Shown here: positions 12,362 through 19,610 of the stretch, piece by piece
Layout: each line of letters begins with the position of its first letter
Numbering within the stretch: position 1 is the stretch's first letter
NCBI GenBank assembly: GCA_008501635.1
Contig: QQUJ01000017.1
Coordinates: forward strand, 124,001-188,000
Reading direction: 5' to 3'
Length of the DNA: 64,000 nt
Source: Pseudomonadota bacterium
GTDB taxonomy: Bacteria; Pseudomonadota; Gammaproteobacteria; QQUJ01
Position numbers and translations under genes: made by a program
The notes under the pieces: model-generated
Databases searched by the model: none
What the model was told of the DNA's origin: nothing
The model's input: the letters and a program-made list of their open reading frames with translations, nothing else

Positions 12362-12690
12362 ATGCCCCGCTCTCGAGCACGCTCTAAGCTCGACTTAAAC
12401 CCCCTCCCCATCAGACGTAGGTCGGGTTAGCGCAGCGTAACCCGACAATGGAAGGCGACAAGAAGTCGGGTTACGCTGCGCTAACCCGACCTACCGGTGC
12501 TTTTTCCCATCCCCGAGTACCGGTCCAATCCGGGTCTTGATCTCATCCGCAAATTGGGCCTTAATGGATCCATAACGCGCTACATGGAGTGGCGTCGCCG
12601 CCTGTCGAATGATCCGGGTGAGCGACAAGAATCAGACACTTAGCTGACGGAGACGCAGTGGCGTCCAACCAGAAACAGGGAGGTGAAGTC
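12362..12690. other. Intergenic region with a large hairpin and no supported gene
   Basis: Contains the inverted repeat described at 12417-12494. The remainder has no recognisable gene. A GTCCAAC heptamer at 12663-12669 resembles an inverse integron core, but no matching inner arms were found. Confidence 0.4.
12417..12494. repeat. Inverted pair of GTCGGGTTA-type palindromic repeats
   Basis: Two perfectly complementary 30-base arms (12417-12446 and 12465-12494) are separated by 18 bases. Each arm reads GTCGGGTTA, then a GCGCAGCG core, then TAACCCGAC, so each arm is itself nearly palindromic. Related copies are at 18806-18833 (degenerate), 19611-19640, 19806-19835 and 26747-26826 (another inverted pair). 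It could act as a bidirectional terminator-like hairpin. Confidence 0.9.
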
Positions 12691-12819: not shown

Positions 12820-12932
12820 CACTGTTATAAGAGACAGCTTTCGAGCTTTCGCGTTGGGTATATGCCACCCCCCCCAACGCCTATGAATCAACGAGTACTG
12901 AAATGAGTAAAGCTGCCTGAAAGGGTTCTCGC

Positions 12933-13886
12933 ATGATGTTTGAACGCTCCATAATTAAGAAGGACAAGGGTGGTGCACCGCGTCTATCTTCTCGCGGTAT
13001 AGATTTCAGCAAACCGCGCCTGATGGAAGCAAGCGCGTTCAATCAGTCTGGTTGCTGGTTCTGCGGGGCGCACGATGCAAAAAGCTTCACCGACGAATAC
13101 GGTTGGTATGAAGAGATGACTTGCGAGAGCGGCGGTGCGAACATTACCTTTACAAACACGACCAACACCTACATTCCGATCGGTGAGTGCACCGTGAGAA
13201 TTTGTGACTATTGCATCGCTGGGCATCACGCCGTCAAGAACAAGCAGACGAGCAGGGTCACGCTGCTGTTAACGGTAATTGGACTGATAGGCGCGCTATT
13301 AAGCGGCTTTTACTACGGATTTCTTGACTGGCTGGGCGACATATGGGGTTTCGACGCGCTGTACTTCACGCTCGCCGATGTTTGGCACCATGAGAACAAC
13401 AACCACATCCTGACTCAGGTATTCGCCGTCGCGCTTTCGGGTATCTCATGGCTCCTGCTCATCCCCGCAATTATCATGATATTGGCGGCCTTTATCGGGC
13501 TTGTTACGTGGCCTTTTCGCGGCAAAGCCGTGCAGAAAAGACGTGACGTAACAACGGTTGACGGCCTGACCACAGATGACCGACGAGCTCTACGCGATTG
13601 GGCGCGGGATTTGGGGGCGGCGCAACTGATGCGCGAAAACGCGAAGGTCGATCCGTTCTTTTTCTTCCACCCGGATGCCGATGATGATGGCCAACGCCAC
13701 ATAGCTTTTGAGGGTCGCAGTGAATGGATCCGTGAATACGGGGGCATGACCTTCAGGCACTGGATCGAACACCGCACGTCGAATGTGGATAAGTGGGAGA
13801 CCAAGCCTATGCCCTCGCGGAAAGGCGAGGAAGAACGCGCCGACCTCACCCGGAGGGGATTAAAGCCACCAGGTGGCTGGCTTTAG
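12933..13886 (+). CDS. Hypothetical membrane protein with N-terminal Cys pairs
   Basis: 317 aa. An N-terminal soluble part has CWFC (about residues 41-44) and, later, CTVRICDYC, suggesting a zinc-binding ribbon. Two membrane segments follow (about 111-132 and 165-195), then a cytoplasmic tail with DDRRALRDWARDLGAAQLMR. No named family recognised. The last codons (LKPPGGWL) are written as a self-complementary sequence (AAAGCCACC with GGTGGC). It is the first gene of the cassette-like segment and is followed by an attC-like palindrome. RBS AAAGGG lies nine bases before ATG 12933; a second ATG follows immediately. Confidence 0.6.
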   Translation: MMFERSIIKKDKGGAPRLSSRGIDFSKPRLMEASAFNQSGCWFCGAHDAKSFTDEYGWYEEMTCESGGANITFTNTTNTYIPIGECTVRICDYCIAGHHAVKNKQTSRVTLLLTVIGLIGALLSGFYYGFLDWLGDIWGFDALYFTLADVWHHENNNHILTQVFAVALSGISWLLLIPAIIMILAAFIGLVTWPFRGKAVQKRRDVTTVDGLTTDDRRALRDWARDLGAAQLMRENAKVDPFFFFHPDADDDGQRHIAFEGRSEWIREYGGMTFRHWIEHRTSNVDKWETKPMPSRKGEEERADLTRRGLKPPGGWL

Positions 13887-13952
13887 CTGGTCGGATTACC
13901 TGCGCCATTCGGTTATGTACCGACCCGTAATGCAGATGGAGTACTCAATCAC

Positions 13953-14025
13953 TTATAACAAGGTGCTGTTGTCGGACAAATTTTTCGCTACGCTCCAAAT
14001 TTTCCGCAAAGCACTGTCGTTAGCC
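13953..14025 (+). other. Integron attC-like recombination site
   Basis: This 73-bp imperfect palindrome starts TTATAAC (13953-13959) and ends GTTAGCC (14019-14025), fitting inverse and direct core sites (the AAC/GTT is exact). Inside, GTGCTGTTGTCGGACAAATTT on the left pairs with the reverse complement of AAATTTTCCGCAAAGCAC. Pairing is complete if three single bases (G, T, C) on the left arm bulge out. Extrahelical bases confined to one arm are the structural hallmark of attC sites. It lies between two orphan genes of the same orientation, as expected for gene cassettes. Confidence 0.65.
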
Positions 14026-14045
14026 TGATTTTTACAGATACCTCA

Positions 14046-14828
14046 ATGAGTCATTCAATAAAAAGGCGCGTTCGACTTTACTATTTAATGACTCTATTTT
14101 TAACCCAAATGGCTGTTGGTTGCTCTGTCGCTTCTAAGTATGATCTTCCGCGGGGATACAGCATCGGGGTTGATTCCGATCTTGGGCTTGTCATCGGCTC
14201 TGTCGGATCTAAACCCGCCGCTGATAATCCTCCGTGGTACGAGTGGAGTCGATACGATTTTCGCTCATTAACTGACCAGGATATAGAAGGTCACATTACC
14301 TCGGCTTTCAAGTGGAATCCATTCTACATGTGGGGTTCAATGCCCCTCTGCCAGGATGATGGGCTCGAATTCGAATGTGGATATCTTTTCGCCATACTTC
14401 TTCCCCCGGGTGACTACGAATTCCAGCAAGTTACACCTGCAATGATGAGCAGGTCGACGGATGGTAGCTTCACCCAAAGTGGATGGACTTTTCCTCTGAC
14501 CGATTATCGCTTTACCGTCTCATCAGGGCAGGCTGTTTATATCGGGAACCTCTTGAGCCGAGTTTGTATCGGCGGGCTAAAGTCGGGTAATCAAGTACTG
14601 TCTGCAGTAGGAATTGTGAATGACATGTCATCACGCGATATACCTTTATTGGTCGCTAAATATTCGCAGCTTGAATTCGTAAAAATTAGGCGTCAGCCTA
14701 TTGCAGGAAAACCATGGCTCTGGCGTTATAAGGAAGATGAAGGGTTAGTGCCGCCCTATGGTTGGCCGCAAGATTGCGCCCTTGAACCGGGGCAAGTTGA
14801 GAGCTATTTGAACGCCAACGGGAAGTAA
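14046..14828 (+). CDS. Hypothetical lipoprotein (cassette-like)
   Basis: 260 aa with a signal peptide and lipobox (MAVGC, Cys at about residue 26), so probably an outer- or inner-membrane lipoprotein. The mature part is rich in Trp, Tyr and Phe. It contains LLPPGDYEFQQVTPAM and a later YRFTVSSGQAVYIGNLL, which resemble a beta-sandwich region found in uncharacterised lipoproteins. No named family recognised. Base composition is AT-richer than the core genes. It starts 20 bases after an attC-like site, which suggests acquisition as a cassette. Confidence 0.6.
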   Translation: MSHSIKRRVRLYYLMTLFLTQMAVGCSVASKYDLPRGYSIGVDSDLGLVIGSVGSKPAADNPPWYEWSRYDFRSLTDQDIEGHITSAFKWNPFYMWGSMPLCQDDGLEFECGYLFAILLPPGDYEFQQVTPAMMSRSTDGSFTQSGWTFPLTDYRFTVSSGQAVYIGNLLSRVCIGGLKSGNQVLSAVGIVNDMSSRDIPLLVAKYSQLEFVKIRRQPIAGKPWLWRYKEDEGLVPPYGWPQDCALEPGQVESYLNANGK

Positions 14829-14896
14829 CTTTTTGTGTAATAAGGGGTCTGACCCCTTTACTGTTCTTTACTTGTTAGAAACCGAGAATAAGAATT
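14829..14896. repeat. Short inter-gene palindrome (AAGGGGTCTGACCCCTT)
   Basis: A 17-base palindrome centred near 14856 sits between the lipoprotein and NYN genes. TAAC and GTTA at the outer edges resemble reduced attC cores, but the inner arms pair poorly, so a cassette site is only a possibility. A half copy (GACCCCTTTACTG) is at about 16377-16389, at the end of the minus-strand gene. Confidence 0.4.
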
Positions 14897-15712
14897 ATGG
14901 TGAATCCAAGACTTGTTGCGAAAACAGAAGCAGAAGAACCAACTCTCAGATTGGCTGTCCTGATCGACGCCGACAATGCACAGGCAACGGTTATTGAAGG
15001 TTTATTGGCGGAGATTGCTAGATTCGGCGAAGCTACCGTCAAGAGAATTTATGGTGACTTTACATCACCAAATAGTTCGCAATGGAAAAAAGTATTAAAC
15101 AAATACGCGATAAAGCCCGTACAACAATTCGCTTATACGACTGGAAAGAATGCGACAGATAGTACGCTTATTATTGATGCAATGGATCTCCTCTACACAA
15201 GAAGGTTTGATGGATTCTGTCTCATATCTAGCGATAGTGACTTCACTGGCCTCGCCTTACGAATACGTGAAGAAGGGTTAACAGTACTTGGATTTGGTGA
15301 GAAAAATACTCCGGAGGCCTTTCGTAACGCATGTCACAAATTTCTCTTCACAGAGGTATTGCGGCCTGCTGCACAGAATAATATGGAAACGCAGGAAGTA
15401 AGTACCGGTAGCATCCAGAAAAAACCAGTAGGAACTCAAAGCCAAGCAACGAAAACGGAGAGCACTCAACAGCAAAGATTTCCGAGAGCCTTCGTTCTGG
15501 AAGCACTAGAAAAAGCAAGCGATGATACAGGCTGGGCCAATCTTGGAACGTTCGGGAGTTATCTGACGAAGTTACAGCCAGATTTCGATTCAAGACTTTA
15601 TGGATTCAAGAAGCTTAGTGACCTAGTTAGGACAAGAACAGATATCTTTTTATTTGAGGAAAGGGCAATTGCCGGTTCAGATACAAAGGCAGTATATGTT
15701 CGTGCCAAGTAG
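14897..15712 (+). CDS. NYN domain ribonuclease-like protein with LOTUS/OST-HTH domain
   Basis: 271 aa. N-terminal NYN (PIN-like) nuclease domain (about residues 15-150) with the acidic residues in LAVLIDADNAQ, the IYGDFTSPNSSQWKK segment, ATDSTLIIDAMDLLY and FCLISSDSDFTGLALRIRE. A low-complexity linker leads to a C-terminal LOTUS/OST-HTH domain (about 193-270) that probably binds RNA. This pairing is a known family of predicted RNA-cleaving proteins in bacteria. Lower GC than the flanks. A cassette-like site follows it. Whether it acts in RNA turnover or phage defence is not shown by the sequence. Confidence 0.87.
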   Translation: MVNPRLVAKTEAEEPTLRLAVLIDADNAQATVIEGLLAEIARFGEATVKRIYGDFTSPNSSQWKKVLNKYAIKPVQQFAYTTGKNATDSTLIIDAMDLLYTRRFDGFCLISSDSDFTGLALRIREEGLTVLGFGEKNTPEAFRNACHKFLFTEVLRPAAQNNMETQEVSTGSIQKKPVGTQSQATKTESTQQQRFPRAFVLEALEKASDDTGWANLGTFGSYLTKLQPDFDSRLYGFKKLSDLVRTRTDIFLFEERAIAGSDTKAVYVRAK

Positions 15713-15770
15713 GCTAGTTCAGGGCGCTCCAGCAGACTGTTAAAAGCGGCGGCTGAGCGCAGCGTTGGAC
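15713..15770 (+). other. attC-like site (weaker candidate)
   Basis: GCGCTCCAGC (15724-15733) pairs with GCTGAGCGC (15752-15760) if one C bulges. The direct core GTTGGAC (15764-15770) fits GTTRRRY exactly. The expected inverse core on the left is degenerate (CTAGTTC), so this is weaker than the site at 13953-14025. The next gene's ATG lies three bases after the core, a typical cassette arrangement. Confidence 0.5.
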
Positions 15771-15773
15771 ATC

Positions 15774-16343
15774 ATGAAACACAATAAGCCACTCTATCCG
15801 AAAGTCATGAACAGCCGAACGTTGTTTAGCTCACCGATCCGAAGTTGCGTATGGTGCGCGCTGTGGCTTGTTCTCTTCGGCTGCACGGTGCAACCTGAAA
15901 CGCCACCGACAGTAGAGCGAGAGGTTGGTTCAAACAGTCCCGTTTCATGCGATGACGCACTGGTGTACGAAACGGCGGATGCTCATCCGGCTATCAGGTG
16001 GATCAACGCCCGCAAAGGCGTTTCCGCCAATGCAGCACTGTCATGCATACTGCGCTCAGACGGGGACGACGGTACGCTCGAACTTAAAGCATACCTGTCT
16101 AGCGGGCTCTACAGATTCGTTCGTGAATGTGGATCTGGGGGGAAGACCGTCTATCGCGTGTTTGAGTACAAGAATAGTGCTCGACCCTACCTCTTTCGCC
16201 TGCACAGGAATGAGTTTGTCGACCCAAAGACCCATATTGTCGTCGGTTCACATCGCAAGCCGGCCGGTAATTATCAGCATGGGATCGCTGAAGCAAGCAA
16301 CGATGCTTCGAAAATCAGTCTTTGTCTCCCAGGTGCTCAATAA
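15774..16343 (+). CDS. Hypothetical lipoprotein (cassette-like)
   Basis: 189 aa from ATG 15774, three bases downstream of an attC-like core. A long basic N-region precedes the lipobox LVLFGC. The mature protein has several Cys and the segment ETADAHPAIRWINARKGVSANAALSCILRSDG. No recognised family. An ATG three codons upstream lies inside the core site and is less likely. The tail ends just before the converging minus-strand gene at 16370, with no obvious terminator. Confidence 0.55.
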   Translation: MKHNKPLYPKVMNSRTLFSSPIRSCVWCALWLVLFGCTVQPETPPTVEREVGSNSPVSCDDALVYETADAHPAIRWINARKGVSANAALSCILRSDGDDGTLELKAYLSSGLYRFVRECGSGGKTVYRVFEYKNSARPYLFRLHRNEFVDPKTHIVVGSHRKPAGNYQHGIAEASNDASKISLCLPGAQ

Positions 16344-16369
16344 GAGGCTGCAGCGTGGTCAGGGATGCC

Positions 16370-19575: not shown

Positions 19576-19610
19576 TAGTGGGAAACCGGGTTCGGGAGCG
19601 ATAACGCTGT

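Follow-up and report, generated by a model that had tools for sequence, protein, structure and literature searches.

The closest described systems to the locus considered here are clusters of attC sites lacking integrases (CALINs), which the default setting of IntegronFinder 2 recognises as at least two attC sites lying close together and which hold almost six attC sites on average (PMC9024848). Fused gene cassettes such as blaGES-1/aacA4 can be excised as one unit (PMC4670013), and the insertion of cassettes at attG sites was described by Loot et al. 2024, according to the passages of PMC12901181 that cite this work. We analysed a 64-kb stretch of DNA (C17:124001-188000, hereafter the window) from a gammaproteobacterial genome of 3.93 Mb in 30 contigs, in which a segment of four genes had been proposed to be a CALIN. 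Our results indicate that positions 12825-15764 of the window, perhaps extending to ~16350, very probably form a small and partly eroded CALIN, away from any attI or integrase gene. In the main this supports the original prediction of a pair of attC sites lacking a nearby integrase, although one of the two is degenerate and a third attC was apparently lost. As a relic of mobile genes the segment is real, but of a familiar and ordinary kind.

The two attC sites

The 64-kb window was scanned, with filters off, using a generic attC covariance model (R1) rather than IntegronFinder's own model. R1 was built from 45 aligned attCs that had been extracted beside other integron integrases, on their cassette sides, in genomes of the same class; all sites of the source genome were excluded from its training set. 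The base pairs of R1 show strong covariation (both partners changed in 140 cells vs. 50.3 in shuffles). As a positive control, the attC beside the source genome's own integrase was recovered at 34.4 bits, and the best score on 84 kb of control sequence was 11.2 bits. An Rfam search of the window returned nothing in the segment, its sole match in the window being a cspA element.

The first site (site A, 13953-14025, + strand) ends cassette A, with R'' TTATAAC at 13953-13959 and R' GTTAGCC at 14019-14025. It had been read by eye as a hairpin with three bulged bases on one side, and this was confirmed, all three bases lying on the L'' arm (fold z -2.8). Site A follows the attC plan in that its R'' ends in AAC and its hairpin is imperfect, while its R' shows one departure from GTTRRRY. 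We found 16 relatives of site A in our comparison set of same-class genomes and plasmids, most of them 73-88% identical over the aligning parts. The plasmid carriers belong to Vibrio, Shewanella, Salinivibrio, and Marinobacter and also include the IncC plasmid pKAZ2, and the plasmid matches lie mostly outside annotated genes. Relatives of site A reach 28-36 bits with R1 (up to 35.6 bits for members of the family), and additional attCs lie close by at six of their loci (L095, L099, L102, L106, L110, and L112). In the 17-sequence alignment of the family, both partners of a pair are changed in 40 cells, compared with 19.0 +/- 3.3 in shuffled alignments, and none of the slid controls exceeded 9 cells. 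The site lies between open reading frames both in the window and in another genome (L052 of G023), with no flanking genes shared between the two. No relative of site A was found in phages. Based on this sequence comparison, we consider that site A is a genuine integron attC despite its low score with R1, because its relatives occur in attC contexts and its pairs covary. A low score with a generic covariance model thus does not preclude that a hairpin site read by eye from the sequence is a real attC.

Two relatives of site A have neighbours of a defence-like kind. The one in G023 (L052:1499-3010) is directly 3' of the PADLOC candidate PDC-S71 (expectation value (E) 8e-122), and another, on a Vibrio pectenicida plasmid (L109:6667-8069), is directly 3' of a pair encoding TIR and macro domains.

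The second site (site 2, 15712-15770, + strand) ends cassette C and was the top-ranking R1 match in the window, at 21.3 bits (E 0.015), with the next match at 9.9 bits. Its L'' and L' arms are typical, and its R' core GTTGGAC (15764-15770) ends three bases before the ATG at 15774, as originally described, though the R'' box is degenerate. By DNA similarity, site 2 had no plasmid match, and the genomes gave weak short matches only. Site 2 is probably a damaged attC, because its arms and R' are typical whereas the R'' box is wrong and the fold is no better than in shuffles. With the models built here, the two attC sites lie 1.7 kb apart.

Cassette boundaries and gene content

In cassette arrays, the R' core of one attC opens the next cassette and should pair with that cassette's own R''. 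Among 43 consecutive pairs from known arrays, this boundary rule gave a 7/7 match in 35, compared with 13.6% of random pairings. In the window, GTTATAA at 12824-12830 (+ strand) is the exact reverse complement of the R'' of site A and one of two + strand copies in the 64 kb. It lies ~100 nt upstream of the first open reading frame and is the putative start core of cassette A, which would be cut between G 12824 and T 12825. Since GTTATAA pairs exactly with the R'' of site A, cassette A would therefore span 12825-14019. To the left of 12824, no attC (with R1) and no attI similarity was detected. A palindromic repeat further to the left, at 12417-12495, recurs in the window (at 19610, 19806, and 26740), in other parts of the genome, and in further genomes of the class. 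GGGGTCTGACCCC was tried as a repeat family and set aside as a single copy among the loci examined.

With regard to the next boundary, a start core GTTAGAA lies at 14874-14880 (+ strand), 16 nt before the ATG of a gene for a protein with NYN nuclease-like and OST-HTH/LOTUS domains (14897-15712, +; 271 aa). A gene for a protein 72% identical to this one in another genome (G167) comes after a 32-bit attC that ends in GTTAGAA. The DNA similarity between the window and G167 starts at this core, and the distance from core to ATG is 16 nt in both. Five attC matches, all oriented alike, lie in the 16-kb stretch of G167 (L163; G167:C319:26000-42000), and the last of these precedes the NYN-LOTUS gene. 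After that gene an attC-like L'' begins that is seemingly cut short. Judging by these sequences, the NYN-LOTUS gene is cassette cargo in G167, with the same start core as in the window.

Because the G167 gene starts after the same GTTAGAA core, an attC between the lipoprotein-like gene of cassette B (14046-14828, +; 260 aa, an orphan) and the NYN-LOTUS gene would therefore have been lost. The retained GTTAGAA core, as in G167, is the trace of this junction. R1 found no attC at 14829-14873 (+ strand), the place of the lost site, which holds a terminator-like palindrome, AAGGGGTCTGACCCCTT, at 14842-14858. From the sequence, the attC of cassette B thus appears to be lost, with cassettes B and C fused into a two-gene cassette. 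The pairing of GGCTA (15712) with the core TTAGCC (14020) had first led us to favour an originally single two-gene cassette, a reading dropped on the GTTAGAA start in G167; the pairing itself stays without explanation. GTCCAAC at 12663, considered as the R'' of the last cassette, is on the wrong side and occurs in three + strand copies in the 64 kb, and was attributed to chance.

The NYN-LOTUS assignment was confirmed by matches to PF01936 (E 1.2e-37) and PF12872 (E 8e-16). RNase activity is predicted, as a fair inference from knowledge of the family. This gene, present behind an identical cassette start in two unrelated genomes, would add a predicted RNase to integron cargo. The remaining three genes are that of cassette A, for a predicted membrane protein (12933-13886, +; 317 aa), the lipoprotein-like gene of cassette B, and a further lipoprotein-like gene (15774-16343, +; 189 aa) that is either a last cassette without attC or a resident gene to the right of an insertion. 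None of these three proteins was assigned to a Pfam or NCBIfam family over the cut-off or matched in a defence-model search, and a search for homologues of the 12933, 14046, and 15774 genes, also for synteny, gave none that was convincing. All four open reading frames lie on the + strand, as had been noted. The label "orphan" given to all four holds for three only, the NYN-LOTUS protein being widespread, with relatives on many plasmids. Their atypical composition was also upheld, except that the shift is mild for the first gene. The G+C content is 0.53 in 12825-14019, 0.455 in 14020-15764, and 0.53 in 15765-16369, compared with 0.594 for the window. At third codon positions it is 0.64, 0.46, 0.38, and 0.54 for the four genes in order, compared with 0.68-0.80 for most neighbouring genes. 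Cassette genes are usually without homologues or family, and three orphan genes of low G+C, as usual for cassettes, were counted in favour of the CALIN reading.

A number of results weigh against this reading. Site A scored just 7.9 bits with R1, the three outer R''/R' pairs failing and several arm positions being unusual for the model. A second covariance model from which site A was left out recovered it at 75.9 bits (E 3.6e-24; all else <=15.2 bits), but the training sequences of this model had themselves been collected by their similarity to site A, and the E-value therefore measures kinship and is not an independent attC call. At site 2, R'' reads GGCTAGTTC instead of RYYYAAC and is unmatched to the NYN-LOTUS start core, and the site as a whole folds no better than shuffles. 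R1 also found no attC 3' of the 15774 gene. A strict tool might count one good attC only, since site 2 is without a recognisable R'' box.

On the CALIN reading, an attC would have closed each cassette, its bottom strand forming a hairpin that the integrase (IntI) would cut within the R' core, after G and before TTRRRY. The attC of cassette A is still complete, whereas loss of the attC of cassette B would have fused B with cassette C (NYN-LOTUS), whose own attC would carry the damaged R'' box. Established integron biology suggests that the cassettes would have been laid down by an integron integrase, perhaps the same one that the genome retains. We infer that the block has little mobility today, or none; its mobile unit, if any, would be the fused B and C (14020-15764), excised between the remaining attCs.

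Integron parts elsewhere and the origin of the segment

No integron integrase was found on C17, in agreement with the original prediction, and no attI similarity was found in the window. The suggestion to look for intI elsewhere in the genome was productive. An intact integron integrase lies at C10:362884-363825 (386 bits; cut-off 265); around it are a divergent cassette, a 34-bit attC, a pair judged by inspection to be HigBA-like, and another site at 21.5 bits. A second attI at C10:~164.8 kb is 87% identical over 140 bp to the attI beside this integrase. This second locus (L091:6821-8869; C10:~164.8-166.9 kb) holds two attCs, at 42.8 and 37.4 bits, and a pair that looks BrnT/BrnA-like on inspection, with no integrase nearby; its attI ends in GTTAGGC, which pairs exactly with the next R''. 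It seems to be an integron that lost intI and kept attI. Further attC matches are scattered on C23 and at C10:568 kb. On the minus strand of C6 (41961-42250; L013:9962-10251), integrase fragments matching model residues 1-59 and 281-314 are near-adjacent with the middle absent, as in a decayed intI.

How the segment arose is a separate question from what it is. The usual view of a CALIN would make it the tail of a former integron that has lost its integrase and attI. This is quite plausible, at nearly an even chance, given that the genome also has an attI with cassettes and no nearby integrase as well as the fragments on C6, and that the eroded attCs of B and C suggest age. Against such decay, the left flank has no attI similarity, though the second attI elsewhere is still 87% identical.

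It is almost as likely, and we suggest it tentatively, that an integrase put a run of cassettes into a chromosomal attG-type site, so that there was never an attI here; this would be compatible with the segment being a CALIN. The 15774 gene would then be a resident to the right of the target, and the predicted empty site would read CTATGACACT-G joined to TTGGAC (...ACT-G and TTGGAC..., with the insertion point between them). The bare left boundary GTTATAA, without attI or attC, favours such insertion a little, as do the several scattered attC loci in the genome and the lack of an attC after the last gene. Nonetheless, no relative with an empty site was found in the comparison set, which is of the same class only, and to place three successive cassettes, a run would have to move or insertion would have to be repeated. 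The left-flank gene has distant homologues (L161 and L162), and the stretches retrieved around these contain none of the right-flank genes. A broader joint claim, which we consider unlikely, is that the attC lineage of site A moves in the form of single cassettes, carried by plasmids, conjugative elements, and chromosomes across the Gammaproteobacteria and at times adjoining defence-like genes, and that the resident integrase places cassettes at many sites in the chromosome other than its attI.

The left boundary could also be an assembly join between unrelated pieces, in which case GTTATAA would not be a core and the two attC sites would be unaffected. TATAAGAGACAG at 12826-12837, which corresponds to 12 letters of the 19-letter Nextera mosaic end, is the sole copy in the genome and falls at the left cassette boundary, where it could be an untrimmed adapter end. 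We consider this very improbable: only part of the adapter is present, chance alone would give about half a copy in a genome this large, and GTTATAA independently matches the R'' TTATAAC. Least credible of all is that the hairpins are terminators or repeated palindromes between ordinary genes, in line with the low generic score of site A, the poor fold of site 2, and the real terminator-like palindrome at 14842-14858, but at odds with the conserved AAC...GTT frame, the one-arm bulges, the covariation, the relatives near other attCs in unrelated contexts, and the rank of site 2 as top attC match in the window.

A genome with a complete-looking integron, an attI without nearby integrase, and stranded cassettes thus offers a usable case for weighing decay vs. 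insertion outside attI.

Comparison with known systems

Compared with CALINs as described (PMC9024848), the segment is alike in having two attCs in gene orientation, cassette-like orphan genes, and no integrase nearby, the integrase of this genome being on C10. It differs in that one of the two attCs is degenerate, one more was apparently lost, and the sites are few. The fused B and C resemble the blaGES-1/aacA4 cassette (PMC4670013), as in both the attC of the first cassette is gone and two genes come before one attC; here, however, the putative fusion is chromosomal, holds genes without known function, and has no integron platform. As in the attG-inserted cassettes of Loot et al. 2024, in so far as PMC12901181 describes them, a start core stands without an attI to its left; unlike those, there are several cassettes here instead of one and no empty site is known. 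With the complete integron on C10 of the same genome, finally, the segment shares the cassette plan, the attC structure, and the boundary rule, but whereas that locus is a complete integron, the segment has neither IntI nor attI.

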